From the NCBI RefSeq assembly GCF_033955345.1, contig NZ_CP138332.1, forward strand, positions 3,906,001-3,970,000: a DNA stretch of 64,000 bases, read 5' to 3'. A program made the position numbers and the translations under genes. The notes under the pieces were generated by a model. The model was not told the DNA's origin. It did no database searches and saw only the letters and a list, made by a program, of their open reading frames with translations. Position 1 is the stretch's first letter. Every line of letters starts with the position of its first letter. Of the stretch, positions 1-34,517 are shown one piece after another. This DNA comes from Sphingobacterium bambusae (GTDB lineage Bacteria; Bacteroidota; Bacteroidia; Sphingobacteriales; Sphingobacteriaceae).

Positions 1-1
1 G

Positions 2-1180
2 GGGACGGCAGAAAGTCCAAATACTTGGCTTACGTTAGAAAAAATGGGTGTTACTTGGCTTAACACGGACTATCCTGTTCTGTTGAAGGAGTATTTGGAT
101 CATCTTGCTTCTAGTCGTTATAGATCCTCAAATACGTACGATGTGTATCAGCCTACCTATGTGTCTGACGGACGATCTGCGCATGGGGTGAAAAACGTGA
201 TCTTATTAATAGGCGATGGAATGGGGATGGGGCACATACAGGCGGCTATCTCCGCAAATAAAGGTCTGGCAAACATGAGTCGGATGAAACATATCGGTTT
301 TTCTTTTACCAGTTCCCTTAGCCCGGGTAATACAGACTCTGGAGCCGGGGGCTCAGCCATAGCCACCGGTCAAAAAACCTTTAACGAGCAGCTCAGCGTG
401 GACAGCAGCGGGAATGCGCTACCACGAATACCTGCTATTCTTCGTCCCTTGGGCATCCGTACAGGAATTATTACAACAGGCGACCTCTCTGATGCCACAC
501 CGGCGGCATTCTACACCTCGCATAAAGATCGCAATGCATCAGAGGCGATCAGCGAGTCGCTAATGCACAATGAAGACACTGATATCTTGATAGGCGGAAA
601 ACCTGGTGCATATCAAGATGTGGAAAAATGGAAAAAATTGGTCGCTGGTTTAAAGCGTAATAATTTTGAGCTGCCCGATACGAAACAGGAATTTAGCGCA
701 TCAAAATCGGAAAAATCCATTTACTTTCTGCCCGACTCCCTCACTCGGCCAGTAAAGGACGGACGCGGTCCTATCCTGAGCGAAACCTTGATCGCTACAA
801 TCGAAAAACTCCAAAACCGTGACAAAGGCTTTTTCATCATGGCCGAAGGCGCGCAGATCGATTGGGGAGGACATGCGCGAAACATGGAATATACCTTAAC
901 AGAAACGCAGGATTTTGACAGGGCAGTAGGCGAAGCATTGCGGTTTGCTGACGAAGACGGAAATACATTGGTTATTGTATTGGCTGATCACGAAACGGGA
1001 GCGTTATCCCTTATTGACACGGACTGGCAATCGGGATACGTACAGGGTAACTTTGCATCCAACGATCATAGTAGCATGGCGGTGCCCGTGATGGCTTACG
1101 GTCCCGGAGCGCAGCTATTTACGGGGTTCTTTCAAAATACGGCTATATTTGATCGTATTTTAACCCTCTTTCGCAAATAG
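2..1180 (+). CDS. GDPD-like/alkaline phosphatase fusion, C-terminal part (5' end outside window)
   Basis: The frame is open from base 2, and the residues before the first ATG (position 44) continue the domain, so the true start lies upstream of the window. The first ~40 residues, ending WLNTDYP, match the end of a glycerophosphodiesterase/PLC-like TIM barrel; the paralogue at 62282-63999 has INTDKP at the same place. The rest is an alkaline phosphatase domain: KNVILLIGDGMG (metal-binding Asp), TDSGAGGSA with the nucleophile Ser after Asp, the metal-ligand stretch AEGAQIDWGGH, and ADHETG. Family knowledge: these enzymes hydrolyse phosphomonoesters with a zinc/magnesium centre outside the cytoplasm. 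Inference: one polypeptide could cleave a phosphodiester and then remove the phosphate. A terminator follows directly, so it is separate from the SusC operon. Confidence 0.85.
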   Translation, partial: GTAESPNTWLTLEKMGVTWLNTDYPVLLKEYLDHLASSRYRSSNTYDVYQPTYVSDGRSAHGVKNVILLIGDGMGMGHIQAAISANKGLANMSRMKHIGFSFTSSLSPGNTDSGAGGSAIATGQKTFNEQLSVDSSGNALPRIPAILRPLGIRTGIITTGDLSDATPAAFYTSHKDRNASEAISESLMHNEDTDILIGGKPGAYQDVEKWKKLVAGLKRNNFELPDTKQEFSASKSEKSIYFLPDSLTRPVKDGRGPILSETLIATIEKLQNRDKGFFIMAEGAQIDWGGHARNMEYTLTETQDFDRAVGEALRFADEDGNTLVIVLADHETGALSLIDTDWQSGYVQGNFASNDHSSMAVPVMAYGPGAQLFTGFFQNTAIFDRILTLFRK

Positions 1181-20573: not shown

Positions 20574-21143
20574 CTAGCTCAACGAGGTTTCTTCTTGAAA
20601 TACATCACCAAATCTGCGGAATGTCTCCACGGCCGTATCCACGGCGACAACCTTGTCCAGCTCGTATTTAGGGAGGCTGTTCAACGATTCGGTAAAAGAA
20701 TGCCACATCTGTCCCGAATTTTCACCGTAGCCGCTGAAGAAGGAGAAGCCGCGGGTAATGCCCAACTTCTTTAACATCTGTACGATGTAGGGGCCACCCA
20801 TGATGGATCCCTCCAATACATAGAGGGCACCCATAGCCTGTAGCTCGTTCGTCACGGAAGGAGCAGTCGCCGCAGGGAGATTGCTAAGATCGCCGCCCAA
20901 CTCTTGGATATCCGCTTTAATATAAGCGGAGTTTCTTCGTTCTTGGTGATCTGGGAGGGTGTTCGCCGTAATGTAAGGGGCAATTGCTCGCTCCACGGCA
21001 GAAAAATAGGCATAGAAGCAGCGGAGCAGTTCAAGATAGTCCTGCTCTGTTTTGATGTGCTTGATGCGCATGACGACTTTCTTTTCGGTGTCCTGATGTC
21101 CGGTTTTGGTGGCTTTTTTTATGCTGTTGCTTAATAAATTCAT
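20574..21143 (-). CDS. biliverdin-producing heme oxygenase
   Basis: The start is the ATG at 21143 (MNLLSNSIKKATKTGH); the longer frame to 21185 overlaps the protease gene and adds no domain. His16 in KATKTGHQDTE is the expected proximal heme ligand, and GALYVLEGSIMGG (105-117) is the heme-oxygenase signature with the distal-helix Gly. Length 189 residues, as in bacterial HemO/BphO-type enzymes. Reaction: heme plus oxygen and reductant gives biliverdin, iron and CO in the cytoplasm. There is no phytochrome gene nearby, and it is the last gene of an eight-gene heme-uptake operon, 10 nt after the S41 protease, so iron release from imported heme is the likely job. Confidence 0.9.
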   Translation of the reverse strand: MNLLSNSIKKATKTGHQDTEKKVVMRIKHIKTEQDYLELLRCFYAYFSAVERAIAPYITANTLPDHQERRNSAYIKADIQELGGDLSNLPAATAPSVTNELQAMGALYVLEGSIMGGPYIVQMLKKLGITRGFSFFSGYGENSGQMWHSFTESLNSLPKYELDKVVAVDTAVETFRRFGDVFQEETSLS

Positions 21144-21153
21144 GGCAAATTGT

Positions 21154-22431
21154 TTAATGTTTATGTAGTGGCGGCTGTGCCACAATAGGAATAAATGCAG
21201 GAGCTGTCGAGCGCTTGGTCGAGGGGCTGTTCATATTGAGGGATCTTGCTACACTGCCGCGCGGCGTAGCAGATTTATCGTCCCCTTGGATAGCGGCGAG
21301 GACGGCCTTCAAGGCCGGCTCAGTTGGGTTGCCCTGATCTCCGTTTGCTAATCCGGGTACCGAAATATCGGGCTCCATGCCGTTATAATAATCGCCCCAA
21401 CCCTCGGCATTATGCAAGCTGAAACTGGCGAGGTAAAGGCTGTATTGGTCAATATGTATCGGGAAAAAGCCCACAGGCTTGCCATAGCTGCGCTCGCCCA
21501 CCAGCACACAGGCTACATAGGGTTTAAGTGCGCTGATCAACAGCTCAGCTGCGGAAGCCGTTGTTCCTGAGACGATGAAGTATAGCGTTCGCAGCGATGT
21601 AAGGCTACCTTCCTTGCTGAAATAGACGCTGTTTGCTTTTTCTGAATAATCTACATCAGCCATTGTTGCGGAGCGTCCTTGGTATTGCACCGGCTTGCCC
21701 GAGCTGTCCAGGTAAGGTTGAAACTGCAATATTCGAGCGTTCGCATTTTGTAGGCGACTGTTAAACCGCTCGGTATACATCAACTTTCCATTAGCACTGC
21801 TGGGCGCAATGAGATTGGCTACATGGGCTGCAGTTTCCACATATCCGCCGGGATTATTGCGCAGGTCGATAATCATAATGCTTGGAGCATCCTGCGCGAT
21901 AGCGGCAAACTTATTATCCAATGCTGTCTTGATATTGCTAAGCAATGGAAAGCCGTTTAAGGCTAAGTAGGCAACTTTCGTCGTACCCACCTCAAAGTTG
22001 CTGGAAGGGCCCAGTGTTTCTGTGCCTGTTAAGGTACTTGCTGCTAAAAGACCGCTACTGCCCGTTTTGGTCTGGATGGAGGAGTAGCGCGGTGCCCAAG
22101 CATCATCTTCTAGCTCGTAAGGCTTGTTTTTACTGGGATTGACGGCGTATTGCGCCATGTCGAAGAGCTCCTGTCGGTACATCTCGATTTCGGATAGTGC
22201 ACTGTTTGCGTAGCGTGTACGCGGCGAAAACTGTGCGTAGCTAGGCAAGCTATTGTGCCATAGATACACTTGCCGTGCATATAGAAAAATAGAGTCCAAC
22301 GTCAGTTCGTTACGCGAACCTGTGCCGGGTGATAACTGCTCGTCTTCGGTGTGAGGTGCAGGATCATCTTTTTCGCAACTGCTTAGCGCAACGAGTCCGA
22401 AGAGAAGGCAGAAAAGAGCTATTCGTTTCAT
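21154..22431 (-). CDS. S41 family (CtpA-like) protease lipoprotein
   Basis: The lipoprotein signal ends LSSC (Cys19) and is followed by EKDD, the acidic stretch associated with surface display in Bacteroidota. The S41 fold shows IIDLRNNPGGYVETA (188-202), the catalytic Ser293 in TTASAAE and Lys318 in GERSYGKPVG. No PDZ domain is evident between the N-terminal helical part and the core, unlike classical CtpA. The tail after about residue 370 is low-complexity and ends in HKH. Family role: serine-lysine proteolysis of exported proteins. In an operon of HmuY-like lipoproteins, an attractive inference is maturation or shedding of those hemophores or degradation of host hemoproteins; nothing here proves it. 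Confidence 0.85.
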   Translation of the reverse strand: MKRIALFCLLFGLVALSSCEKDDPAPHTEDEQLSPGTGSRNELTLDSIFLYARQVYLWHNSLPSYAQFSPRTRYANSALSEIEMYRQELFDMAQYAVNPSKNKPYELEDDAWAPRYSSIQTKTGSSGLLAASTLTGTETLGPSSNFEVGTTKVAYLALNGFPLLSNIKTALDNKFAAIAQDAPSIMIIDLRNNPGGYVETAAHVANLIAPSSANGKLMYTERFNSRLQNANARILQFQPYLDSSGKPVQYQGRSATMADVDYSEKANSVYFSKEGSLTSLRTLYFIVSGTTASAAELLISALKPYVACVLVGERSYGKPVGFFPIHIDQYSLYLASFSLHNAEGWGDYYNGMEPDISVPGLANGDQGNPTEPALKAVLAAIQGDDKSATPRGSVARSLNMNSPSTKRSTAPAFIPIVAQPPLHKH

Positions 22432-22454: not shown

Positions 22455-23201
22455 TTACTTTTTTGTTGTTAGATCCGTGCTGCCTTCTTCCGTGATATAA
22501 TATTTGAAAGAGATAAAGCCGCGTTTGGTTTGATAATCTTGTGGCGTAGGCGTGGTTAATGCTCCTTTATAGATGGAGATCATCTTGAATTTTACGTAGC
22601 GACCGTCGGTCAGTTTATAGACGGCTAAGTGTTCCGGAATAGGTGTAAAAGTAATTAAGTTGTTGTCATTTGAATTTTCGCTAACAGCCCAGATGTTATA
22701 TTGTTCTGCAGCAAGGGCAGCCGTGTTAACTTGAAGAGAATAACGGTGTGTAAACACACTCTCCTCCGGAACAGTTTCTATAGCATCAAAATCACCGCGA
22801 AGATAGGCGACGCGGTTGTCTCCCTCCAAAGGGTCTTCGAAATGATTATTGAATGCAAAACCATTCATGAAAATATTTGATCCGTCTTTCCCTTTAAACG
22901 CGATATCCCAATCGGTTGGACTTTTTGCCTTATCTATGGAGACAAAAGCATTACTATTAAAGTCGAAATAGGTAAAATCCGTATAGGTATGAACTTCTGT
23001 AATTGCAGCTTGATCTAAAGGATAGTCGGTTACATAGACCACACCATTTGTGTCTTGCTTGGTATATTCATTGATGATGGTGAACTCTTCTTTTTCCTCT
23101 TCCTCTGGAGCAGGAGCGTCATTTTTGCTGCAGGCACCGGTAATACATGTGATAAAAAGGCCTGCGAAGAGATAAGCTAGTAGGTTTTTTTTTGTTGTCA
23201 T
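22455..23201 (-). CDS. HmuY-like heme-binding lipoprotein (fifth of five)
   Basis: The start is the ATG at 23201 because MTTKKNLLAYLFAGLF leads to a lipobox ITGAC; the longer frame adds a non-signal leader. Cys is followed by SKND and a Glu-rich stretch, a likely surface-export signal. The body has the HmuY hallmarks: NSNAFVSIDKAKS, then DWDIAFKGKDGSNIFMNG, and the closing pair YVKFKMISIYKG and GFISFKYYITEEGS. Family role: capture of heme for the TonB receptor. It is 24 nt upstream of the S41 gene and 67 nt after the preceding hemophore. The heme ligands cannot be assigned by eye. Confidence 0.8.
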   Translation of the reverse strand: MTTKKNLLAYLFAGLFITCITGACSKNDAPAPEEEEKEEFTIINEYTKQDTNGVVYVTDYPLDQAAITEVHTYTDFTYFDFNSNAFVSIDKAKSPTDWDIAFKGKDGSNIFMNGFAFNNHFEDPLEGDNRVAYLRGDFDAIETVPEESVFTHRYSLQVNTAALAAEQYNIWAVSENSNDNNLITFTPIPEHLAVYKLTDGRYVKFKMISIYKGALTTPTPQDYQTKRGFISFKYYITEEGSTDLTTKK

Positions 23202-23268
23202 TGTGGTTAAACGTGATAGATTAATAAATAAGTAAGGCATCCAGCTTTTGCTGGATGCCTGTATTGCA

Positions 23269-24030
23269 TTAGAAAGCTTGGTAATCGAAGCTATAGTAAG
23301 GATAATTTGTTGCTGCAACAGGTGCATTCGGTGTTTCGCCGGTGTACAAGCTGTTGATTTTAAACTTGAATTTTGGTGTGCCGTTTTGTAACAATACCAA
23401 GGTTCTGCCTGCTTGAGCGCTAACGATGTGCGTGGTTAGGTTGTAGTTATACCAACCATTGCCATATACCGTAGATCCTGTAGGGCGTACAACCGAATTA
23501 ATACCAATAGTGTTGCTGGTTGCTGCAGTGAAGCTATCGGAAGCGGTAACCGAAGCGAAAGCTTTATCGATATAAGCTAAGGTGTATCCTCCAGTTGTAC
23601 GCGCTTTAATATCACCTGAAGCAGAACCAGTAAACGTAATTTGGTAATTTGCATCGGTAGCACCATCATTCTGAGTGAAATTAAAGTAGTATGTTCCAGA
23701 GATTGCCCAAGTAGAGTCTGTCCCGCCGCCAGAAATATTGCCTTGTGCAAAGTTGCGTACAGCATAAACAGATCCGGCCCGAGATACAGTTCCCTTCGTT
23801 CCGTTTACATCTGAGTAAACTTCATAGTTTCTCGTCACGCCATCGGGGATAACGATAGCCGATTCATTTTGCAAAGGTAAGCTAGGATTTACCACTTCAT
23901 CTTTATTACACGAAGAGAAGGTAACTAAGCCTAAAAGTACCGCTACTGCGATTTGATTCCATTTTTTCTTTGTAGCTTTGAAAGCTTTTGATTGATTGAA
24001 CATCGGGATTGAAAGTTCCATGTTTTTCAT
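23269..24030 (-). CDS. divergent HmuY-like lipoprotein (fourth of five)
   Basis: A long N-terminal segment precedes the lipobox TFSSC (residue ~41), followed by NKDE. The C-terminal half matches the family through NGWYNYNLTTHIVSAQAGRT, parallel to GWYNYSLNTHLAVPIKGRT in the first hemophore of the operon, and the ending INSLYTGETPNAPV then YYSFDYQ. The N-terminal half differs: the DWDIAF motif is missing and a beta-rich, Gly/Thr/Ser segment is found instead (GTYYFNFTQND and so on). It may bind another ligand or act as a scaffold. A 174-nt non-coding gap with two hairpins separates it from the preceding gene, so it may have its own mRNA end or start. Confidence 0.65.
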   Translation of the reverse strand: MKNMELSIPMFNQSKAFKATKKKWNQIAVAVLLGLVTFSSCNKDEVVNPSLPLQNESAIVIPDGVTRNYEVYSDVNGTKGTVSRAGSVYAVRNFAQGNISGGGTDSTWAISGTYYFNFTQNDGATDANYQITFTGSASGDIKARTTGGYTLAYIDKAFASVTASDSFTAATSNTIGINSVVRPTGSTVYGNGWYNYNLTTHIVSAQAGRTLVLLQNGTPKFKFKINSLYTGETPNAPVAATNYPYYSFDYQAF

Positions 24031-24156
24031 TTTTTTGGTTACTTAATAACAATGAGTAAATAATAGCCATCGAGCTTTTCCTAGGCTCTTTGGCGGCCAC
24101 TAGTCCGGACAGTTTTCTGCTTGCAAGGTGATTATTGTCCTGACTACTGGTTTTTT

Positions 24157-24199
24157 GGTTCTTGCGAACCGCTTTTTAAGCATTTGGCGCCGTGCTTAA
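24157..24199 (-). other. two hairpins inside the hemophore operon
   Basis: In the 174-nt gap between the third and fourth HmuY-like genes, 24176-24199 (TTAAGCA/TGCTTAA stem) and 24157-24170 (GGTTC/GAACC stem, 4-nt loop) form inverted repeats starting 6 nt after the upstream stop. On the minus strand no T-tract follows either stem, so they look more like processing or stabilising structures than a full terminator. Confidence 0.4.
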
Positions 24200-24204
24200 G
24201 ATCT

Positions 24205-24981
24205 TTATCGCGTTTTTATCGTGGTGTTTCCCACTTCTTTCTGTACGTAATATTTAAAGTTGAGGTAAGGAGCGAGTGTCTTTGTTGTTGGCTCTCTCCA
24301 GTTGGGCGCTTCCGCGGGATTATCCTTGTAAAGATTGACGATCTGTACCTTCACGTAGCGTCCGTCTTGCAAAAGAAACAGCATCGAACGGTCTTTGTAT
24401 GGACGTAGTTCGTGGTTGGCAAATACATAAAAGCCCCAAGAATCGTTAGGCTCGCTTAGTCCCAAATGGTTGACGTTTTTTGTGAAATCTGCTGTGCTTG
24501 GCACCTGATCAAGTTCATCAAAAAGTGTTTTTGCCACCGTTACTTTTCCGCGGCCTGCTTGTCCATCGGCCGTGGTTGCGTTGGTATTAAAGCTGGAATT
24601 GTAAATGTTATCTACATAGAAGTGCCAAGTAGACGAGGTTTCGAACGTGTAAGCACTTAGATCGCCTGCGTTATGGTTATCACTATAGATCGGCATGCTG
24701 CTATCAAAATTAAAGCCTAGTGGTCGGTGTCCCTCCGAAGAAGAGTTGCCCACGTCAGGGCAAGGTAGATTGACAATATAGACCACTTGGAACTTTTCGT
24801 CGAGGTAGGCGTAATCATTGATCTTTTTCACGCGCGCGGGCACCCAATTCGTGCCGGCTAAAAAGCCTTCTTCTTCGGGTTCTGGCTCGACAATAGGATC
24901 TTCACCTTTCGAACAAGCTGTAAAGAACAGCGCTAGAAAGGCTATGGAAATCATGTTTTTAACAATCTTCATCTGTATCAT
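24205..24981 (-). CDS. HmuY-like lipoprotein (third of five)
   Basis: The lipobox FFTAC is followed by SKGED and a Pro/Glu-rich linker. The ATG at 24972 (MKIVKN) is an equally good start. The family pattern is present but diverged: STWHFYVDNIYNSSFNTNAT takes the place of DWDIAF-type strands, AGRGKVTVAKTLFDELDQVPS matches the loop seen in the other copies, DSWGFYVFANHELRPYKDR the His-containing strand, and YVKVQIVNLYKDNPAEAPNW with LNFKYYVQKE the end. The Cys in NLPCPDVG is unusual. Role by context: heme or heme-protein binding at the surface. It starts 15 nt after the second hemophore gene. Confidence 0.75.
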   Translation of the reverse strand: MIQMKIVKNMISIAFLALFFTACSKGEDPIVEPEPEEEGFLAGTNWVPARVKKINDYAYLDEKFQVVYIVNLPCPDVGNSSSEGHRPLGFNFDSSMPIYSDNHNAGDLSAYTFETSSTWHFYVDNIYNSSFNTNATTADGQAGRGKVTVAKTLFDELDQVPSTADFTKNVNHLGLSEPNDSWGFYVFANHELRPYKDRSMLFLLQDGRYVKVQIVNLYKDNPAEAPNWREPTTKTLAPYLNFKYYVQKEVGNTTIKTR

Positions 24982-24996
24982 GTTGGTTTGTATTTT

Positions 24997-25857
24997 TTAT
25001 TCTGCTGTGCTAAAGTCTGTACTTTTATCTTTTAAGATGGTGTATTTAAAGCTGATGAAAGGAGCTTTATCATCACGGTCGGGGTCTTCTGGCTTGTTCT
25101 TGTAGAAACTGTAGATGATAACCTTCGCCCAGTTGCCTTTGGCTGTTTTGATAATAATGGGGCGCGCCATGTTGTATACCACATGTGATTTTTTAGCATT
25201 GCCGGGATACATCGTGCCATAGAAATCGTAAAAGGCATAGCCATCACCACTCCCCAGAAAATGATCCAGGTTCAGGTAGCCGTTGGAGAGTAGCTTTGCC
25301 TGCGCCGCCGCCGGGACTTCTGCTATTTTATTGTACGCTTCATCGAGGTAGCTGAATGGTATAGGTAACACTTTTGGCTTGTGCGTATTGCTGTCGTAGT
25401 ATTTGCTGTCCACCTCGCTGTCGACAACCAAGTGAAGTCCGCCGCGACCGGTGCTTCCAAACCCAGGGCCTTTGCTGCCATCCTCAAATTGCACTTCGCC
25501 GTGGTTTGCCCAAATGCTGCTGTTGTAGATACCAGCAAAAGCGATGTCCCATTTATCGGTGGCTGCATATTCTTTAGGAATGGCGCGTCCGTCTTCCAAG
25601 CTGTAGTAGATCGTTTGGAAATTGCCATCGCTCGTTACGTCTTGTCCAGACATGGTTTGCGTGGTGTCGCCAGGGAGATTGTTTACGGTGTAGGTGCCAC
25701 TGCTGGTTACGGTGATGGCTGGTAACTCCGGCAAGATCGGCTCGGGTTCAGGCGTTTCGCCTTTGTCCGAACAGGCGACGAAGGGTGCTAAAAGCAGGCC
25801 GCAACAGGCTATTCGAAAGGAGAAGATCAAGCTGTTGTTTTTAAATTTCGTTATCAT
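24997..25857 (-). CDS. HmuY-like lipoprotein (second of five)
   Basis: The lipobox PFVAC is followed by SDKGE and a Pro/Glu linker. Hallmarks: KWDIAFAGIYNSSIWANHGE, GPGFGSTGRGG, SYLDEAYNKIAEVPAAAQ, YAFYDFYGTMYPGNAKKSH and the final FISFKYTILKDKSTDF. The order mirrors the other copies in the cluster, so the group arose by repeated duplication with strong divergence. Length 286 residues. Role: surface capture of heme or a related porphyrin, passed to the TonB receptor encoded two genes upstream. It lies 23 nt after the first hemophore. Confidence 0.8.
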   Translation of the reverse strand: MITKFKNNSLIFSFRIACCGLLLAPFVACSDKGETPEPEPILPELPAITVTSSGTYTVNNLPGDTTQTMSGQDVTSDGNFQTIYYSLEDGRAIPKEYAATDKWDIAFAGIYNSSIWANHGEVQFEDGSKGPGFGSTGRGGLHLVVDSEVDSKYYDSNTHKPKVLPIPFSYLDEAYNKIAEVPAAAQAKLLSNGYLNLDHFLGSGDGYAFYDFYGTMYPGNAKKSHVVYNMARPIIIKTAKGNWAKVIIYSFYKNKPEDPDRDDKAPFISFKYTILKDKSTDFSTAE

Positions 25858-25880
25858 CGTTTTAGCTATACAGTTATTGA

Positions 25881-26651
25881 TTATCTTGTTTTTAGGTTTG
25901 TGCTTCCATCCTCCTGCACAAAAAAGCGGAAGGTGAGGTAAGGGGCGGGCCAGTGCAGGTTGGTGACTACCGGCGGGTTTCCTTGATACACATTGATCAG
26001 CTCTAGCTTGGCATACTTGCCTGTGGCTGTTTTCAGTATGAATGTTCGTCCTTTAATTGGTACAGCCAAGTGGGTATTGAGGCTGTAGTTATACCATCCA
26101 TAATTATACTGCTGGGGCCATCCTTGCCAGCCCACAAAGCCTTGGTTGTTTTCAAAATTGGCATCCTCGGGCACGATATCCACTTCATCGTAGGGTTTAT
26201 CAACCTTGATGATTGCGCCTTGTCCGCTTCCACCGTAGCCCGGGCTTTTCACGACCTCGGGGTTGTTGACATAGACGATGGAGTTATAGATTTCTGTGAA
26301 GGCTATATCCCAGTCATTGGTCTTCATGTAGCGCGCCGAGTCGGCCGCATTGTTGAGCCAGATCTGTTTTTTTGTAGTGAAGCTATACAGAAAGGTGCGG
26401 AAATCACGTTTTTCTTTGCCATCGACACCATCGCCTACCGAGGCGCCGGTATCGCCTGCGAGATCTTCCACGACGGTGCTTTTCCCGTCGGCCAAATCAG
26501 GTTGTACTTCTTCTTTGCTACAGGACAGTGCCATAGCCGTAGCAAAGAATAATCCGATCAGCCATGGCGAGCGTCCTGTTCGACGTCTTGTGGAAGAAGC
26601 GTTAAGCGGTTTGTTTTTCATGTTGATCCGTATGCGTTTTATGTTCATCAT
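25881..26651 (-). CDS. HmuY-like lipoprotein (first of five)
   Basis: The signal has the lipobox MALSC, then SKEEV, the surface-export-type acidic stretch. Either the ATG at 26651, which directly follows the receptor stop, or the ATG at 26621 may be used. It carries DWDIAFTEIYNSIVYVNN, SPGYGGSGQGAIIKVD, then GWYNYSLNTHLAVPIKGRT and YAKLELINVYQGNPP followed by LTFRFFVQEDGS. In Porphyromonas gingivalis the hmuY gene also sits next to hmuR, and this neighbour position is the best functional clue. Length 256 residues. Confidence 0.85.
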   Translation of the reverse strand: MMNIKRIRINMKNKPLNASSTRRRTGRSPWLIGLFFATAMALSCSKEEVQPDLADGKSTVVEDLAGDTGASVGDGVDGKEKRDFRTFLYSFTTKKQIWLNNAADSARYMKTNDWDIAFTEIYNSIVYVNNPEVVKSPGYGGSGQGAIIKVDKPYDEVDIVPEDANFENNQGFVGWQGWPQQYNYGWYNYSLNTHLAVPIKGRTFILKTATGKYAKLELINVYQGNPPVVTNLHWPAPYLTFRFFVQEDGSTNLKTR

Positions 26652-26652
26652 T

Positions 26653-29124
26653 TTATCCTTTAAATAGCCGGTAGGTTAGCCCGGCGCTTAGTAATCTGCC
26701 CATCTGTCCCGGTATAAGCCGATCTACGTAGTCAAATAGATTTTCCGCGGTAAGTGTTGCCGTCAGACGGTTGTTGCGGAAGCGCTTCTCTAGCGAGGCA
26801 TAGACGATTACATGAGCGGCAACCTCAATATCGTATCTGTCGTAGAATCCGTTGCTGTTGGCATCGTCAAAACCATATCGGCTGCGGAAGTTAGCACGCG
26901 CGGTTGCGGTCAAGCTCCAAGGCATGCGGTAGGTGATATTGGCATTAAGCATATGTCGAGACCTATTCCATAAACCGATGTAGTCGCTAGGAACCGATGC
27001 ACGATCTGTCCCTGTTCGGGCATCGCGAATGCTGTAGTAGGGATGTCTTCCCGCGCTGATGCTATCGATGATTCCCTTGTTTTTGGTGATCAAGTATTGG
27101 TAGCCGATGTTAACATCCAATTTGGGCATGGGCGAATAGGATGCAGACAGCTCGAATCCCGTGTTGTAGGCCAGTGCAATATTTTCGAATGTATAGATTT
27201 GTTCTTGGTTTATCTTCCTTGCAATTTGAAGGGTGTTGATAAAATTCTCCTGCCGATGGTAAAACCAAGATCCTTCTAGTTTTAGCTTGTTTGAAGGGCT
27301 GTATGCCCATCCTGCGTTGAAGGATGTGGAGCTTTCGGGTAGTAGTCTGTCGGGAAGGTTACTTAACGTATATTCTTGAATATTAGATATCTCTCCCGCT
27401 GCCTGCAGATCCCGTAAACCTTGTTTGACCACCTCGGCCCCCATCACGGTGTAACCTTGCAAGGCGTTATAAAATATCTGGTAGCGTTTCTTAAAATCGG
27501 GCGCAATGAAGCCACGACCGAAACCGACTTTAAACGTTAGCTTTTCCGTTGGATGATATTGTGCACCAAAGCTGGGACTTAATTGGCCGCCATAGGTGCC
27601 GGCATGGTCATAGCGTAGGCCAGCGACAAAGTTGATGGTTTCCGATGGTATATAATCGGCTTGGGTGTAGGCAAACGCATTCCATAGCAGATCAGACTGT
27701 TCGACAGATGCGTCACGCATCTGACTCAAGTTGCCTCCTAAGCCCGATGTGAATTTGAGGCTACTACTTGCCGCGTAAGCGAACTGTTGCTCGATACGAT
27801 GGTTGTATTCGTTGAACTCGTTATTGGACAGTAGGGCATTACTGTTCTCGCGCACAATATCCATTTTAGTATCAAACTGGGTGTAGTAGTAGCGAAGCAT
27901 TGAGCGAAGGCCATTGCTGTAATTACTGTTAAGGTTAAGCGTGATGTTGATGTCGTCATCACGTAAGTTGTCCAAGTTGTTGTTAAGGGACGCCCCTCTG
28001 CCGAAAGCTTGGTTGTTATTCGATCTTCTGGAGTTTAAGCGTGCTTGTAAGCCTACGGTATGTATCTCATTGAGCTGATAGCGGACGCGTGACTGCAAGG
28101 TTAGGTTTTCGGTAGGGGGAATTGTTTGCCCATTCATGTACCGTCTATCGGTGTTGAAGCCATCGTTGCGGTAGTAGTTTCCGGTCAACAAAATAGAGCC
28201 GCGCTGGCCTTGGAATGGTGTTTCGCCTTCCAGCGTAGCGTCGACTAGATTGCGGGTTCCGTAGAATAGGGCGGCACGAGCCTGCGGTTCTACCGCGCCA
28301 TGGCGCGTGATGATATTGATGGCACCACCGAGCGCCTCACTGCCATAGAGGCAAGAGGTAGCGCCCTTGATAATTTCTATGCGTTCGACATTGGTCACGG
28401 ATATGCGCGAAAGATCAAGGTTTCCGTTATTGCGCCCTACCATGGGCTGCCCATCTACCAACACCATAATGTATTGCGAACTAAATCCCTGCATCTGTAT
28501 GCCTACGGCGCGGCTTCCGCTGGCAATATCGTTGACCATGGCTACGCCGGTCTGTTCGCGTAGTACCTCATCAAGTCGGCGGCTGCCCATCAGCTCGATT
28601 TGCCGACGGTCAATAACCTTGACAGGCATGGCGCTACGTGAAACATCAATCAGATTATCAGGATTGCCCACTTTGGCCTCCACCAACACATCTTCAATGC
28701 TTTGATCGCTCGCCGCAAGTTGAATGTCCAAACGAATCGTTTTGCCTACCGCGATAGAAACCTTGATTTCCTGCGGGGCGTAGCCTAAGCTAGAAACATG
28801 CAGTTTGTAACTTCCTGCAATGATATTCGAAAACTTGAAATTTCCCGCTTCATCACTATGACTAATATGCATATCCGGCATTAACCTCAGATTTACATGA
28901 GATAATGGTGCACCATTATTGTCGGTAACATGTCCGTTCAGGTTTCCCCTTATGCCGGTCTGCGCATGTGCAGGATAAATTCCGATGGATAGTGTAAAAA
29001 CCATGCTGAACAGGTATACTAGTTTTGTTAAATGCAATGTGATAATCCGTTTGTTATTTTTAATCGTTCTAAATAAAGATGTGGTACAAATATGGACATT
29101 AAGGCTTTTAACTGGTTTGTTCAT
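26653..29124 (-). CDS. hmuR: TonB-dependent heme receptor, HmuR-like
   Basis: After the signal peptide (ending AHAQ) comes a carboxypeptidase-regulatory-like domain (LNGHVTDNNGAPLSHVNLR), a TonB-box region VEDVLVEAK-like at about 140, and a plug with LDEVLREQTGVAMVNDIASG, VLVDGQPMVGRNNG and GATSCLYGSEALGGAINIIT, then a 22-strand-type barrel. Role: TonB-driven entry of heme into the periplasm. It is the first gene of the hemophore-protease-heme oxygenase operon. The coordinates use the first ATG, but this codon lies inside the 21-bp repeats and gives a poor signal peptide. A TTG at 29037 (HLTKLVYLFSMVFTLSIG) or the ATG at 29004 is more likely the true start. Confidence 0.88.
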   Translation of the reverse strand: MNKPVKSLNVHICTTSLFRTIKNNKRIITLHLTKLVYLFSMVFTLSIGIYPAHAQTGIRGNLNGHVTDNNGAPLSHVNLRLMPDMHISHSDEAGNFKFSNIIAGSYKLHVSSLGYAPQEIKVSIAVGKTIRLDIQLAASDQSIEDVLVEAKVGNPDNLIDVSRSAMPVKVIDRRQIELMGSRRLDEVLREQTGVAMVNDIASGSRAVGIQMQGFSSQYIMVLVDGQPMVGRNNGNLDLSRISVTNVERIEIIKGATSCLYGSEALGGAINIITRHGAVEPQARAALFYGTRNLVDATLEGETPFQGQRGSILLTGNYYRNDGFNTDRRYMNGQTIPPTENLTLQSRVRYQLNEIHTVGLQARLNSRRSNNNQAFGRGASLNNNLDNLRDDDINITLNLNSNYSNGLRSMLRYYYTQFDTKMDIVRENSNALLSNNEFNEYNHRIEQQFAYAASSSLKFTSGLGGNLSQMRDASVEQSDLLWNAFAYTQADYIPSETINFVAGLRYDHAGTYGGQLSPSFGAQYHPTEKLTFKVGFGRGFIAPDFKKRYQIFYNALQGYTVMGAEVVKQGLRDLQAAGEISNIQEYTLSNLPDRLLPESSTSFNAGWAYSPSNKLKLEGSWFYHRQENFINTLQIARKINQEQIYTFENIALAYNTGFELSASYSPMPKLDVNIGYQYLITKNKGIIDSISAGRHPYYSIRDARTGTDRASVPSDYIGLWNRSRHMLNANITYRMPWSLTATARANFRSRYGFDDANSNGFYDRYDIEVAAHVIVYASLEKRFRNNRLTATLTAENLFDYVDRLIPGQMGRLLSAGLTYRLFKG

Positions 29125-29310: not shown

Positions 29311-29388
29311 GAGAAAGTTCTTCGTTTGTATTTAGATTGATTAAATGCTTTTTTTGTGTCGATTTAAAGATTAAACGTAACCGGATTG

Positions 29389-30270
29389 ATGAAGGAATTT
29401 ATCAAATATAGCAGCTCCTTTCTAGGAGGTTTTACCATAAGAATTACGGCCATCATGGTTTGTTACCTGTGCTGTAGTATTAGTGTTTCGGCGAACCCCA
29501 AGCGAATTATAAGCTTGGGGGGAGCAATTTCCGAAACGATTACAGCATTGGGGCTTGGGGCTCACTTAGTAGCCGTGGATGTGACGAGTGTCTATCCTGA
29601 GACAGTGAAGCGCTTACCTAAAGTGAGTAAAAATCGCTCGGTATCCACCGAAGGATTGATCAGTTTTCGTCCCGACTTGGTGATTGCACCACAAGGGGAT
29701 GTGCCGGAAGGGATTATACAGGCTTTGCGTGGGGCGGGCATTCGCTTTGTTGCTGTTAAGCAGGAATATTCCGTGAAAGGTGCATTGGCGTTTATCCGGG
29801 AGATAGGTACCATCGTTGGCGTAAAGCAAAAGGGTGAGGCATTGGCCCTAGAAACCGAAAAGCGCATCATCAAAGCACAACAGCTGGTGAAATCCAGCAG
29901 TACGAGCAAACCTAAAGTGCTTTTCATCTATGCGCGCGGTACAGGCACCATGACGGTGGCTGGGCGCGGAAGTAATATGGATGCCATTATTTCTCTGGCC
30001 GGTGGACGAAATGCTATTCAGGAGTTCAATCGTTATAAAACCTATAGCACAGAGGGATTGGTCAGTGCCAATCCGGACGCTCTTCTTTTATTTGATTTTG
30101 GCGTACAAAGCTTGGGAGGAAAGGCGGCTATTTTGGAGATGCCCGGTGTGGCTTTTACCAACGCAGGCAAAAAAAAGCGTATCCTTTCCGTCGACGGACC
30201 GTTGATGGTCAACTTTAGTGTACGCTTGGATCAGGCCATATTGGCCCTTCATGGAGAACTGAAAAAGTAA
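29389..30270 (+). CDS. hmuT: periplasmic heme-binding protein of an ABC importer, HmuT-like
   Basis: The start is the ATG at 29389; the TTG just before it is also in frame. The signal sequence reads AIMVCYLCCSISVSA. The mature protein is a class III (helix-hinge) binding protein: KRIISLGGAISETITALGLGAHLVAVD, FRPDLVIAPQGDVPEGIIQALRGAG and GGRNAIQEFNRYKTYSTEGLVSANPD. The last with its Tyr is typical of HmuT/HutB proteins, where Tyr or His bind heme iron. Role: carries heme across the periplasm to the permease. First gene of the plus-strand import operon; the permease gene follows after 21 nt. About 293 residues. Confidence 0.9.
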   Translation: MKEFIKYSSSFLGGFTIRITAIMVCYLCCSISVSANPKRIISLGGAISETITALGLGAHLVAVDVTSVYPETVKRLPKVSKNRSVSTEGLISFRPDLVIAPQGDVPEGIIQALRGAGIRFVAVKQEYSVKGALAFIREIGTIVGVKQKGEALALETEKRIIKAQQLVKSSSTSKPKVLFIYARGTGTMTVAGRGSNMDAIISLAGGRNAIQEFNRYKTYSTEGLVSANPDALLLFDFGVQSLGGKAAILEMPGVAFTNAGKKKRILSVDGPLMVNFSVRLDQAILALHGELKK

Positions 30271-30291: not shown

Positions 30292-31335
30292 ATGTTGAAT
30301 CGAAAATTGATATATGTGGGGCTCATCGCCGGGTTGGTTGCCGTTATTTTGGCGTCGCTGGCGATGGGAGCCATGAAAATCCCGCTAGGGGATGTTTTGG
30401 CAATTCTGGGGAGAAAAATAGGGTTTCCGGTACAAAGGCCAGTTCAGGATCTGTATGAAAATGTGCTGCTCTTTGTCCGGTTGCCACGCGTGGTACTCGG
30501 CATACTGGTTGGCGCTGCATTGGGAATTTCGGGCGCTGCTATACAAGGCATCTTCCGCAATCCGCTTGCTGAGCCTGGGCTTATCGGGATTTCGGCGGGT
30601 GCCTCCCTTTTTGCGGTGTTGGTCATCGGCATGGAAGCCTTGCTGTTCGTGTCGCTAGCCAACCTCTTAGGGCTTTATCTATTGGCTTTTGCAGCCTTTG
30701 CTGGCGCGGGGGTCGCGGCGCTGTTGGTTTATCAGTTTTCCAAAACTGATGGCAAACCCAATGTGGCCACCATGTTGCTCGCCGGCATAGCAATCAATGC
30801 ATTGGCTGGTGCGCTGACGGGGCTTTTCACGTACCTCGCCGATGAGCAACAGCTCCGGACGATTACCTTTTGGATGTTGGGCAGCTTAGGCGGGGCAAAT
30901 TGGCCTACGGTGGTGGGTGTGCTTCCATTTATCGCCCTGCCGTTGATCCTGCTTCCCTTTTATGGACGAGGCTTAAACCTGTTTGCTATCGGTGAGAGCC
31001 AAGCGGAGCAGATCGGTATGAACCCCAATCGCATTAAATCAGTGGTGGTATTGCTGTCTACTTTGGCGGTGGGTGCCTGTGTTTCTGTAACGGGAATCAT
31101 AGGGTTTGTGGGTTTATTAGTGCCGCATATTATCCGTCTGTTGGGCGGCGTAGACCATCGCTTGGTTTTGCCAGCTTCAGCGCTCTTGGGGGCGTTGGTG
31201 TTGACGGTCTCGGATATGTTGGCGCGCATTCTAGTCGCGCCGGTAGAACTACCCATAGGTGTAATTACAGCCTTGCTGGGAACACCGGTTTTTCTGTATA
31301 TCCTATACAAAGACAAAAAGAAGATATTGAATTAA
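30292..31335 (+). CDS. hmuU: FecCD-type heme ABC permease, HmuU-like
   Basis: A hydrophobic protein of 347 residues with about ten membrane helices and the FecCD signatures VRLPRVVLGILVGAALGISG, GIFRNPLAEPGLIGISAGA, AIGESQAEQIGMN (coupling loop to the ATPase) and the end PVELPIGVITALLGTPVF. Role: inner-membrane channel of the heme importer, working as a dimer with the ATPase encoded 35 nt downstream. The neighbourhood (heme-binding protein, HemS-fused ATPase) assigns it to heme rather than siderophore; a second, separate FecCD pair for siderophores is at 50674-52590. Confidence 0.9.
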   Translation: MLNRKLIYVGLIAGLVAVILASLAMGAMKIPLGDVLAILGRKIGFPVQRPVQDLYENVLLFVRLPRVVLGILVGAALGISGAAIQGIFRNPLAEPGLIGISAGASLFAVLVIGMEALLFVSLANLLGLYLLAFAAFAGAGVAALLVYQFSKTDGKPNVATMLLAGIAINALAGALTGLFTYLADEQQLRTITFWMLGSLGGANWPTVVGVLPFIALPLILLPFYGRGLNLFAIGESQAEQIGMNPNRIKSVVVLLSTLAVGACVSVTGIIGFVGLLVPHIIRLLGGVDHRLVLPASALLGALVLTVSDMLARILVAPVELPIGVITALLGTPVFLYILYKDKKKILN

Positions 31336-31370: not shown

Positions 31371-33209
31371 ATGATTAGAGTAGAGTCCATAAGCTTTGAG
31401 ATCAACAAGCGACATTTGTTGAAAGATATTACCTTCAGCATTCGCAAGGGAGAGATGCTCGCAATTCTTGGTGCAAATGGCGCCGGCAAATCCACCTTGA
31501 TGAAGATCCTCTGTCGGGAAAAGAATCCCTCCGAGGGACGTATTATTTACAACGGCCGGGATATGAATAGCTATTCGATCAAGGAACTTGCGAATATGCG
31601 CGCCACACTTTACCAACAAAATGCCATTAGCTTGGCCTTTACCGTGCAAGAGGTGGTGCTAATGGGCCGTTATGGGAAATCAGGAAAAGCACCCGAGCTT
31701 TCTGACGAAGTCGTGCTGGAGGAAACGATGAGTGTATGTGGGATCGCTCATTTAGCCGAGCGTTCTATGCTTACCCTCTCTGGTGGGGAGCAACAGCGCG
31801 TGCACTTTGCCCGCGTACTGGCGCAGATATGGGATTGTAAGGAGGCCTTGCTGTTACTTGATGAACCCATTGCCAACATGGATATGCTCTATCAGCACCA
31901 AACCTTGGCGATAGCAAATGCTTTGACCAAAAAAGGCTTTATGGTGATTTGTGTACTGCATGAAATTAACCTTGCCGCACAATATGCCGACCGCGTTATT
32001 ATGTTGAAAGGAGGGCGCAAATGGTGGGATGGAACACCGGAGGAAGTGTTTACGGCGAAGAATATTTTTTCAGCCTTTGGGGTGGATGCACAGGTGCGTA
32101 TTGACCCACAGACGCTGACTACACAGATTGCACCGGTGGCGGTGCGCTTGGAAGCGACACACTTTAATTCCAGTATGGCAGCATCCTACCATCAGCTTTC
32201 ACTGAAGGAGCGGATGCTGACTTATATCGAACAAAACCCAGAGAAAGCATTGTGGCAGGTGGCGGATGCCTTGGGAACACGAGAGGCAGACTTGTTGTTG
32301 ATTGATCTGGGGAAAGATGTCTTTCTTTTGGGGAATGATATGGAGAAGATCCTACAGCGTATAGAAAGTCTAGGATGGGTGAAAGCAATGACCTACAATC
32401 CGCATTGCGAGAATCAACGGGAGGGGGTGTACCGCAATTTCAGCAAAGAGGAGCATGTGACACTCTTTTTGGGTGAAGATATTGACCTACGGATTTTTGC
32501 AAGCCGATGGTCACTAGCTTTGGCGGTATGCAAACCGGGAAAAGAAAGTTTGCAATTTTTTGATAAGATGGGCAAGGCGGTGCATAAAATTATGCTGACG
32601 GAAGGTAGCTACCGCGAGGCCTTTATGGAACTGGTGGCCGACTTTAAGGATATACAGCAATCGTTACCCGCTTTTGAACGTGCGACGCGCAAAGGAATGC
32701 CCGAGCGGCGGGATGCGGAAATCGATGTGGTTGAGTTTCGACGCTCTTGGGACAGCATGCAGGATACGCACGAGTTTTTTGGTCTCTTGAGACGGTATGG
32801 CATGACGCGCATGCAGGCATTGCGTTTAGCTGCCGGCCGGCGTGCCGTGCAGGTTACACTGGAATCCTTTCGGCGCACCATCATGCAATGCTCGTTGGAG
32901 AAAATACCCTTAATGGTGTTCACCGCCAATGAGGGCTGCGTGCAGATTAATACGGGCGAGCTCAAGCGTATTGACCAACAGGGCAAGTGGCTTACCTTGC
33001 AGAGCAACAGCACGGGACAGATCCGCCTAAACGAGGATGCCGTAAATTCGGTATGGCATGTGGTGAAACCCACCGCAGATGGTGATGTCAACTCGTTGGA
33101 GCTGTATGATACCGAAGGAGAGATGATTGTGCAGTTTTTTGGCGAGCGTAAGCCGGGCATTGCCGAACTGGAGAGTTGGCGCGAAGCACTGGGCCATGGC
33201 GTAGTTTAA
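31371..33209 (+). CDS. HmuV-HmuS fusion: heme importer ATPase joined to a HemS/HmuS domain
   Basis: Residues 1-~255 are a complete ABC ATPase: Walker A GANGAGKST (34-42), signature LSGGEQQR (136-143), Walker B LLLLDEP (160-166) and H-loop His197. Residues ~275-612 match full-length HemS/ChuS/HmuS, which has two repeats. The first half has LGTREADLL, LESLGWVKAMTYN-like and DIDLRIFASRW; the second has WDSMQDTHEFF with His467 in the place of the heme-ligating His by family comparison, then VFTANEGCVQINTG and VKPTADGDVNSLELYD. Roles: ATP hydrolysis for import, and heme binding, transfer or oxygen-dependent breakdown in the cytoplasm. In most bacteria these are separate genes. The permease lies upstream and a Fur-like gene 29 nt downstream. 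Confidence 0.9.
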   Translation: MIRVESISFEINKRHLLKDITFSIRKGEMLAILGANGAGKSTLMKILCREKNPSEGRIIYNGRDMNSYSIKELANMRATLYQQNAISLAFTVQEVVLMGRYGKSGKAPELSDEVVLEETMSVCGIAHLAERSMLTLSGGEQQRVHFARVLAQIWDCKEALLLLDEPIANMDMLYQHQTLAIANALTKKGFMVICVLHEINLAAQYADRVIMLKGGRKWWDGTPEEVFTAKNIFSAFGVDAQVRIDPQTLTTQIAPVAVRLEATHFNSSMAASYHQLSLKERMLTYIEQNPEKALWQVADALGTREADLLLIDLGKDVFLLGNDMEKILQRIESLGWVKAMTYNPHCENQREGVYRNFSKEEHVTLFLGEDIDLRIFASRWSLALAVCKPGKESLQFFDKMGKAVHKIMLTEGSYREAFMELVADFKDIQQSLPAFERATRKGMPERRDAEIDVVEFRRSWDSMQDTHEFFGLLRRYGMTRMQALRLAAGRRAVQVTLESFRRTIMQCSLEKIPLMVFTANEGCVQINTGELKRIDQQGKWLTLQSNSTGQIRLNEDAVNSVWHVVKPTADGDVNSLELYDTEGEMIVQFFGERKPGIAELESWREALGHGVV

Positions 33210-33238: not shown

Positions 33239-33550
33239 ATGAAAAGACAAAAGCTAACGGATTTTCAAAAGATGGGCCACAGCGAATGGCTTATTAACCG
33301 ATTACAGAACTATTGCCTTGCGCGACGCATGAAATATTCGGAAAAGAGGCTGATGGTGGCCATCAAATTGGCCGAAATAGACCGAAAAGTGGAGGCCGAA
33401 GAACTGTGGATTTTATTGAAGAAAGATGGTTACCCGATCAGTATTGCATCGGTTTATCTTAATTTAGGAGTCTTGGTAGATGCCGGTATTTGCGCAGCGG
33501 AACGCCTAACGCAAAGGCAGGCCTTGTATTTTGTGCCCGCTACAGCTTAA
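33239..33550 (+). CDS. Fur-like protein reduced to the winged-helix domain
   Basis: The 103-residue protein matches only the N-terminal DNA-binding half of Fur. It has MKYSEKRLMVAIKLAEIDRK in the place of the family's T-x-Q-R-x-x-I-L-x-x-L helix, VEAEELWILLKKDG, and PISIASVYLNLGVLVDAGI, which parallels the recognition segment ISxATVYRTLxxLxExGL. The usual metal-binding and dimerisation half (His/Cys-rich, about 60 residues) is absent; the protein ends with LTQRQALYFVPATA. It lies 29 nt after the HmuV-HmuS fusion and is probably in the same mRNA, so it may regulate the heme locus without sensing metal by the normal route. Its stop overlaps the convergent AraC gene by 11 nt. It could instead be a non-DNA-binding relic. 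Confidence 0.7.
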   Translation: MKRQKLTDFQKMGHSEWLINRLQNYCLARRMKYSEKRLMVAIKLAEIDRKVEAEELWILLKKDGYPISIASVYLNLGVLVDAGICAAERLTQRQALYFVPATA

Positions 33551-34517
33551 CTTCGCTGGGCGGCATACCATAGTAACGTTTAAAGGCATTGGTGAAGCTC
33601 GCTTGGTGTTTAAAACCGACTAAATTGCCTATTTCGTACATGTTGCCTCGCTTTTCTTCGACAATCAATCGCCGGGCTTCCACCATACGCTTGCGCGTGA
33701 TAAAATCGTAAATAGTAGTGCCAAAGTATTTTTTGAAACCTGTACGCAACTTGGATTCGTTCAATAGGGCTTTTTTAGCCAGCTCTTTTTGCGTAGGCGG
33801 GTTGACATAATTCTCCTCCAACAGTTCCCGCACACGATCCAGCTTTTCGATATCCTCGTCCTGTAAAATTTCTTTTTCGTCTTGAAGATATTGACTAAAC
33901 TGCTCGAGCTGATACATGATAAGTTCCAGAATGCGGGCATCGGTAAACATGCGTTTTAAGTGCCCATCTTGTTTGCACTCGCGTATACCCTCGATAGAAT
34001 GACGCATCTCTGGCGTTACATAAAGGTCTTCATCCGTAAAGGAGCTCGTTATGCCCTTTTCCATTTCACGCAGAAAATCCTCGTGCAGCGGCGAGGTGGT
34101 ATCCACCAGATTCAGGTAATAATCTTTGGAAAGCACCACTAAAAAGTAGATGTATTCCATTTCGGCTCGTACTTCGTAAGATTCTTTTTGAGTCGGTAAG
34201 TAGCGTATATTGTGGCGGCTTCGTCCGTAGCGTGGTTTGCTTTTACTACCCGATTTCTTCTCTTTACTGAATATAAACTGGCTGGCAATGGCATCGCCTT
34301 CGATCTCGGTTTCTATCCGTACATTCTCGCTGAAGTTCATCTCGGCGTAAAGTAGGAAAAGCCCGTTAGTAGAAAGCTGATAGTTTTTCATGTCTACGGG
34401 GCTTTGCTTGATATTGACCTGTCGCTCCGATAGTCGGTGGTTGGACACAAATTTCTCCGGAAGTTCTTCCATAAAGAGGTATTCGTTGTGGTGCTCAATC
34501 TTCGCTTTGATCAACAT
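33540..34517 (-). CDS. AraC family transcriptional regulator
   Basis: The N-terminal ~210 residues form a sensor region of the PchR-like kind seen in Bacteroidota iron-uptake loci, with a beta-rich start (YQLSTNGLFLLYAEMNFSENV...) and no membrane segment. The C-terminal ~105 residues carry two helix-turn-helix units: PTQKELAKKALLNESKLRTGFKKYF and then GNLVGFKHQASFTNAFKRYYGMPPSEV, the second being the conserved AraC motif. Length 325 residues. Placed at the end of the heme locus and with its own Fur-like promoter box, it is a good candidate for the activator of the heme operons, possibly through the 21-bp repeats. Confidence 0.9.
   Translation of the reverse strand: MLIKAKIEHHNEYLFMEELPEKFVSNHRLSERQVNIKQSPVDMKNYQLSTNGLFLLYAEMNFSENVRIETEIEGDAIASQFIFSKEKKSGSKSKPRYGRSRHNIRYLPTQKESYEVRAEMEYIYFLVVLSKDYYLNLVDTTSPLHEDFLREMEKGITSSFTDEDLYVTPEMRHSIEGIRECKQDGHLKRMFTDARILELIMYQLEQFSQYLQDEKEILQDEDIEKLDRVRELLEENYVNPPTQKELAKKALLNESKLRTGFKKYFGTTIYDFITRKRMVEARRLIVEEKRGNMYEIGNLVGFKHQASFTNAFKRYYGMPPSEVKL

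Follow-up and report, generated by a model that had tools for sequence, protein, structure and literature searches.

The path by which heme travels from the exit of an importer to a cytoplasmic acceptor, without free heme on the way, is an open step of bacterial heme uptake. Two fates have been reported for heme held by acceptors of the HemS/ChuS/HmuS/PhuS family. PhuS hands its heme to the oxygenase HemO (PMC6449446, PMC6018153, PMC12670364), and PhuS His210 and His212 matter for the contact with HemO (PMC6018153). Yersinia HmuS and ChuS degrade heme in vitro (PMC6018153, PMC12670364), a reaction that in Y. pseudotuberculosis HmuS requires His196 and Arg102; whether the family degrades heme under physiological conditions is a matter of continuing debate (PMC6018153). 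In Bacteroidota the genes commonly stand in the order hmuT-hmuU-hmuV-hmuS, the last two separated or overlapping by a few bases; in the Proteobacterial loci of our set hmuS stands upstream.

In the window analysed here, 64,000 nucleotides of Sphingobacterium bambusae from a genome that is one 5.56 Mb contig, importer ATPase and acceptor are encoded by a single gene, hmuVS. An earlier note on this DNA, made from its letters, had pointed to the gene and had named two genes as the usual arrangement, which the adjacent hmuV-hmuS pairs of Bacteroidota bear out. No paper on an ATPase-HemS fusion was found in the literature searched, so that within this scope the fusion, which is real and conserved, is undescribed. 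Its two partners are well-known proteins, found here in their usual setting. A naturally occurring covalent link between importer and acceptor points, if circumstantially, to the two acting next to each other, and hmuVS offers a single polypeptide on which heme hand-over could be measured.

A fused gene in a heme-acquisition island

The hmuVS frame opens with an ATG and has no internal stop in its 612 codons (Table 1). Its ATPase part reaches 288 bits against NF010068, a heme-specific ABC ATPase model with a curated cut-off of 261, matches ABC_tran at residues 17-167 (E 5e-30) and aligns with the sequence of HmuV 4g1u over residues 5-253 (E 2.7e-49). The catalytic motifs are all intact (Walker A, G34-T42; signature LSGGEQ, 136-141; Walker B/DEP, 160-166; H-loop, H197) and are conserved in an alignment of 19 fusions, and the FecCD permease and substrate-binding protein of a HmuV importer are encoded in the same operon. 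The remainder matches ChuX_HutX at residues 298-421 and HemS (PF05171) in two stretches (E 1.1e-55), with a HemS match at 477-607; among proteins in the PDB, PhuS is matched over residues 268-606 (E 2e-52), and ChuS and HemS each over about 278-607. Both the HmuV-type ATPase domain and the two-repeat HemS domain are complete in one protein. The earlier note's reading of a 612-residue frame with HmuV and, after residue ~275, both HemS repeats therefore holds: no stop or frameshift separates the domains, and the HemS similarity after that residue is present.

The same note had singled out His467, in a DTHEFF motif, as a candidate heme ligand, and this residue does align with the axial ligand of the family, His196 of HemS, His193 of ChuS and His209 of PhuS. 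Arg374 aligns with the distal Arg102 of HemS, and F376, F470, R480, K566, Q588 and R593 also fall on HemS pocket positions. Besides His196 and Arg102, further HemS pocket residues are taken to contact heme; F104 and F199 of HemS are named in the title of a PDB entry. Across 19 full fusions R374, F376, H467, R480, K566, Q588, F590 and R593 are invariant in the alignment, and the residues of the HemS heme pocket are intact in hmuVS.

A single-chain AlphaFold2 model has two confident domains (mean pLDDT 92.9, pTM 0.62). In VIA-align the ATPase part (1..257) reaches Z 34 to both 5b58_C (BhuV) and 4g1u_D (HmuV), and the HemS part Z 42.4 to PhuS 4mgf_A (over 277..612) and Z 40.4 to HemS 2j0p, with residues 274..612 superposing on PhuS 9..353. 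No solved structure of a fused protein is among the best 50 Foldseek matches or the VIA-align matches listed. The linker is modelled with low confidence (pLDDT ~61 at residues 261-270), which fits a flexible tether, and tail comparison finds in it an FNSN-like signature common to most fused relatives. A conserved internal start from which free HemS could be made was considered and rejected: hmuVS has Met269 just before HemS, but the closest fusions have Leu or Ile.

Proteins combining ABC_tran and HemS were found well beyond this genome. A second species carries a fusion 87% identical to hmuVS, and independent full fusions occur in about 20 other genomes, single-contig ones among them. Of 400 genomes sampled from the family, 18 have full fusions, as do two genomes of Flavobacterium. 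A scan of genome contigs seeded with six peptides of hmuVS, which fusions in distant phyla could have escaped, gives as named carriers Sphingobacterium corticibacterium, Sphingobacterium sp. JB170, Pedobacter cryoconitis, Flavobacterium pectinovorum and F. limi. The loci of two named Sphingobacterium genomes (L032, L033) encode ATPase domains identical to those of G583 and G502, sampled genomes of the genus to which hmuVS belongs. In full fusions the HemS part shows a dN/dS of 0.03-0.12 where synonymous change is unsaturated. The fused HemS part is under strong purifying selection, and the fusion is maintained by selection in related bacteria.

The surroundings of hmuVS form a full heme-acquisition island, with TonB receptor, HmuY-like lipoproteins, HmuT, HmuU and heme oxygenase (Table 1), and the heme context read in the earlier note holds. 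This setting, the position of the TonB receptor included, is conserved in relatives. In the row of lipoprotein-like genes, those at 25881-26651 and 22455-23327 pass the Pfam cut-off for HmuY, the one at 24997-25857 falls just below it and the other two have no Pfam match; all five may be diverged HmuY paralogues. An S41-family peptidase gene (21154-22431) lies between this row and the heme oxygenase. The Fur-like gene sits between hmuVS and the AraC gene, and homologues occupy the same place in relatives' loci (L032, L033, L163-L167, L173, L175 and L177).

Table 1. The hmuVS island and the parts of hmuVS, in positions of the window.
Feature	Position	Strand	Evidence
Heme oxygenase (PF01126), about 10 kb from hmuVS	20574..21185	-	52.8 bits vs cut-off 23
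Row of five small genes for lipoprotein-like products, behind the TonB receptor	22455..26651	-	Pfam
TonB-dependent outer-membrane receptor, divergent from hmuTUVS	26653..29124	-	B12 and heme receptor models match, none above cut-off
hmuT, periplasmic heme-binding protein, start codon uncertain	29386..30270	+	PF01497 E 3.1e-29; weak IsdE (heme SBP) match
hmuU, FecCD-family permease	30292..31335	+	PF01032 E 1.2e-91
hmuVS, HmuV ABC ATPase and full HemS/ChuS/PhuS domain, 612 aa	31371..33209	+	ORF, Pfam, NCBIfam, PDB sequence, AlphaFold2
HmuV ATPase domain, residues 1-255	31371..32135	+	NF010068 above cut-off; motifs; VIA-align
Linker, residues 256-277, ~22 aa	32136..32201	+	pLDDT ~61 at 261-270; tail comparison
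HemS/ChuS/PhuS domain, two repeats, residues 278-612	32202..33206	+	Pfam, PDB sequence, VIA-align
Arg374 codon, counterpart of HemS distal Arg102	32490..32492	+	Alignment; Arg102 role PMC6018153
His467 codon, counterpart of heme axial ligand	32769..32771	+	Alignment; ligand assignment PMC6018153
Short Fur-like protein, 103 aa	33239..33550	+	PF01475 27.1 bits, N-terminal part of Fur profile only
AraC-family regulator, convergent with hmuVS, conserved neighbour	33540..34517	-	PF12833 E 1.1e-18

Proposed capture and fate of the imported heme

We read hmuVS as the probable ATPase subunit of a type-II heme importer, HmuT-HmuU-HmuV, whose acceptor would be tethered C-terminally by a short flexible linker. 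The tethered domain would take up heme at the pore exit by way of His467 and Arg374 and so keep free heme low beside the membrane; the heme would then be passed to the island's own heme oxygenase and/or opened by the HemS domain itself. We infer the U2V2 assembly, the binding of heme, its capture at the pore exit and its onward delivery or degradation, and we give the reading as a whole a little better than an even chance. If the transporter is like HmuUV (4g1u), the U2V2 architecture would place two HemS domains beneath the membrane on each transporter. The fixed 2:2 stoichiometry of the earlier note is supported to that extent, as a ratio. Its suggestion that the permease hands heme straight to HmuS stays hypothetical, and a pTM of 0.62 together with the low-confidence linker supports neither a docked geometry nor a fixed path from the pore to His467.

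A tethered acceptor is favoured by the domain and structure matches, the conserved pocket, the low dN/dS and the conserved heme context. It is also favoured by what PhuS (transfer to HemO) and Yersinia HmuS (degradation with His196 and Arg102) do with heme (PMC6018153, PMC12670364), and by the distribution of heme oxygenase genes: one lies no more than 35 kb from 11 of 20 full fusions, against 2 of 14 two-gene or broken loci examined. The corresponding figures are 14 of 15 for loci with an eroded HemS part and 12 of 12 for those lacking HemS (all raw counts, with kinship ignored). Besides the flexible linker and undocked model, it is opposed by split relatives with nearly adjacent genes, which evidently manage untethered, and by the erosion or loss of HemS in the oxygenase-linked groups, which marks the domain as dispensable. 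Delivery to an oxygenase in the manner of PhuS finds a candidate partner in the PF01126 gene of the same island. However, PhuS His210 and His212 are replaced by Glu468 and Phe470 in hmuVS and only the equivalent of His209 (H467) is present, so that the PhuS-type ligand switch is not conserved, and transfer to the oxygenase, if any, need not use it.

The HemS domain could instead be a heme-opening enzyme like ChuS and HmuS, in which case the importer would carry its own degradase and the separate oxygenase would act in parallel or as a backup. DTHEFF and Arg374 match the HemS/ChuS/HmuS type, in which the corresponding His196 and Arg102 are the residues needed by Y. pseudotuberculosis HmuS (PMC6018153). 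Split relatives, mostly without a linked oxygenase, have a ligand-competent HemS, and erosion or loss of HemS where an oxygenase is nearly always linked is what overlapping activities would lead one to expect; this pattern fits an overlap in function between HemS and heme oxygenase. Since hmuVS has an oxygenase in its own island, however, and degradation by the HemS family in vivo is debated (PMC6018153), we treat a tethered degradase as a tentative alternative, clearly below an even chance.

A labile junction and an eroded sister family

A single well-supported clade of the ATPase tree takes in all fused forms, together with nine two-gene members, six that lack HemS and two that are broken; the HemS tree agrees with it. 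An AU test on the concatenated tree rejected the fused genes as a single clade (p 8.6e-5), so that fusion and/or fission took place more than once. A single origin, unchanged since, was rejected by the same test. The hmuV-hmuS junction is thus evolutionarily labile, made or broken more than once. One relative's locus (L176, 4223-6066) continues for 46 residues of the HemS part until a frameshift splits the otherwise fused gene, which has the look of either a recently broken fusion or an error in sequencing; another (L117) has one in-frame TAA between the hmuV and hmuS parts. Identity to hmuVS is 68-69% for the two fusions in Flavobacterium, against 36-41% for the two-gene versions of other Flavobacterium, which suggests from sequence identity that they may have been acquired by transfer between families. 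On plasmid p74 of Leptospira biflexa (L205, 2032-5814) the order is T-U-V-S, hmuV and hmuS overlap by 4 bases, and the locus adjoins a TonB receptor and an HmuY gene, as in Bacteroidota. The matches listed in the plasmid search included no fusion, just this two-gene locus of Leptospira.

Such lability raises the possibility that the fusion is functionally near-neutral, a stop or frame change within one operon linking or unlinking the genes with a gain of, at most, equal dosage and co-translation. The gaps and overlaps of a few bases that are common in Bacteroidota and seen on p74, the rejected single clade, the resemblance of L176 to a frameshifted fusion and the single TAA of L117 would all follow readily. 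Against this, the fused state has lasted through deep branches without its linker falling out of frame, and the large fused clades have the FNSN-like linker in common; we consider a near-neutral fusion unlikely, though not far-fetched.

A sister family of 15 proteins in the genus (570-585 aa) has an intact ATPase and a recognisable HemS-like region. Its copy in the same genome (L002, 1048-2769, minus strand; G000:C1, ~147 kb) lies in a second hmu island, and its HemS-like region is above the cut-offs of both PF05171 and PF06228. The 13 aligned members have all lost the helix block bearing the axial His by deletion, and 12 of them have another residue in place of the distal Arg; the two unaligned members, L166 and L167, are near-copies of aligned ones in the ATPase tree. 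A model of L002, of moderate confidence (mean pLDDT 76.7), still resembles HemS and PhuS in fold (TMt 0.65-0.70), with disorder at the expected site of the ligand-helix block. Where measurable, dN/dS in the family is 0.10-0.33, faster than in full fusions but under constraint. In a third group, represented in the tree by six proteins (L172-L175, L177 and L039), the ATPase and an FNSN-like linker (FNSNL) are present with no HemS adjacent, and a PF05171 search in eleven genomes with such NBD-only forms found no HemS gene anywhere. Fused, split, eroded and lost HemS in close relatives, with and without a linked oxygenase, amount to a natural experiment on the role of HemS.

The retention of the sister domain without its ligand helix implies that something other than canonical heme ligation keeps it. 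One candidate is regulation, the fused domain mainly gating the ATPase in response to cytoplasmic heme, as the substrate-binding C-terminal domains of MetN-type importers do. The topology is the same, an accessory C-terminal domain on the ATPase, and the 15 sister proteins hold their domain under constraint. Yet the single-chain model of hmuVS gives no sign of inter-domain contact (pTM 0.62) and some relatives dropped the domain and kept the ATPase, which makes a mainly regulatory role improbable. A broader proposal is that HemS tethering created a new kind of transporter subunit that couples import to the cytoplasmic fate of heme, and that the sister family kept its domain and reshaped it into a ligand-altered or regulatory domain of the ATPase; we regard this as speculative and rather unlikely. 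An artefact, in which a missed stop or an assembly error joined two genes, has practically no probability, being ruled out by the open frame, by the 87% identical fusion and many further ones, some in single-contig genomes, and by selection on the whole frame, with nothing found in its favour.

Comparison with known systems

The HmuS of Bacteroides and Porphyromonas hmu operons shares a name, a phylum and a role in heme iron with hmuVS, but is a different protein, which we take to be CobN-like rather than of the HemS family, so that the likeness is in name only. It has been described as a de-chelatase (PMC12583661). True counterparts are the split hmuTUV-S loci of Flavobacterium, Spirosoma and Leptospira biflexa p74, with the same gene order and the same TonB receptor and HmuY neighbours; they differ in keeping hmuV and hmuS as separate genes, whose ends often touch or overlap by a few bases. 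ATPases of the MetN/MalK type have C-terminal regulatory domains and resemble hmuVS in carrying an accessory domain at that end of the ATPase, but the domain is unrelated, and a regulatory role in hmuVS is hypothetical.

The two halves have separate proteins as their closest known counterparts. HmuV of Yersinia pestis HmuUV (4g1u) and BhuV of Burkholderia (5b57/5b58) have the same ATPase domain (38% identity and VIA-align Z 34 between the hmuVS ATPase and 4g1u), the same catalytic motifs and a FecCD partner, but are single-domain, whereas hmuVS adds a C-terminal HemS domain of ~335 residues. HemS, ChuS and HmuS (Yersinia, E. coli O157) and PhuS (Pseudomonas) have the same two-repeat fold (Z 39-42), and their axial His, distal Arg and other pocket residues are kept in hmuVS, with the DTHEFF motif of the HemS/ChuS type instead of the His210/His212 set of PhuS. 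They are free soluble proteins, whereas the HemS of hmuVS is a covalent part of the importer.
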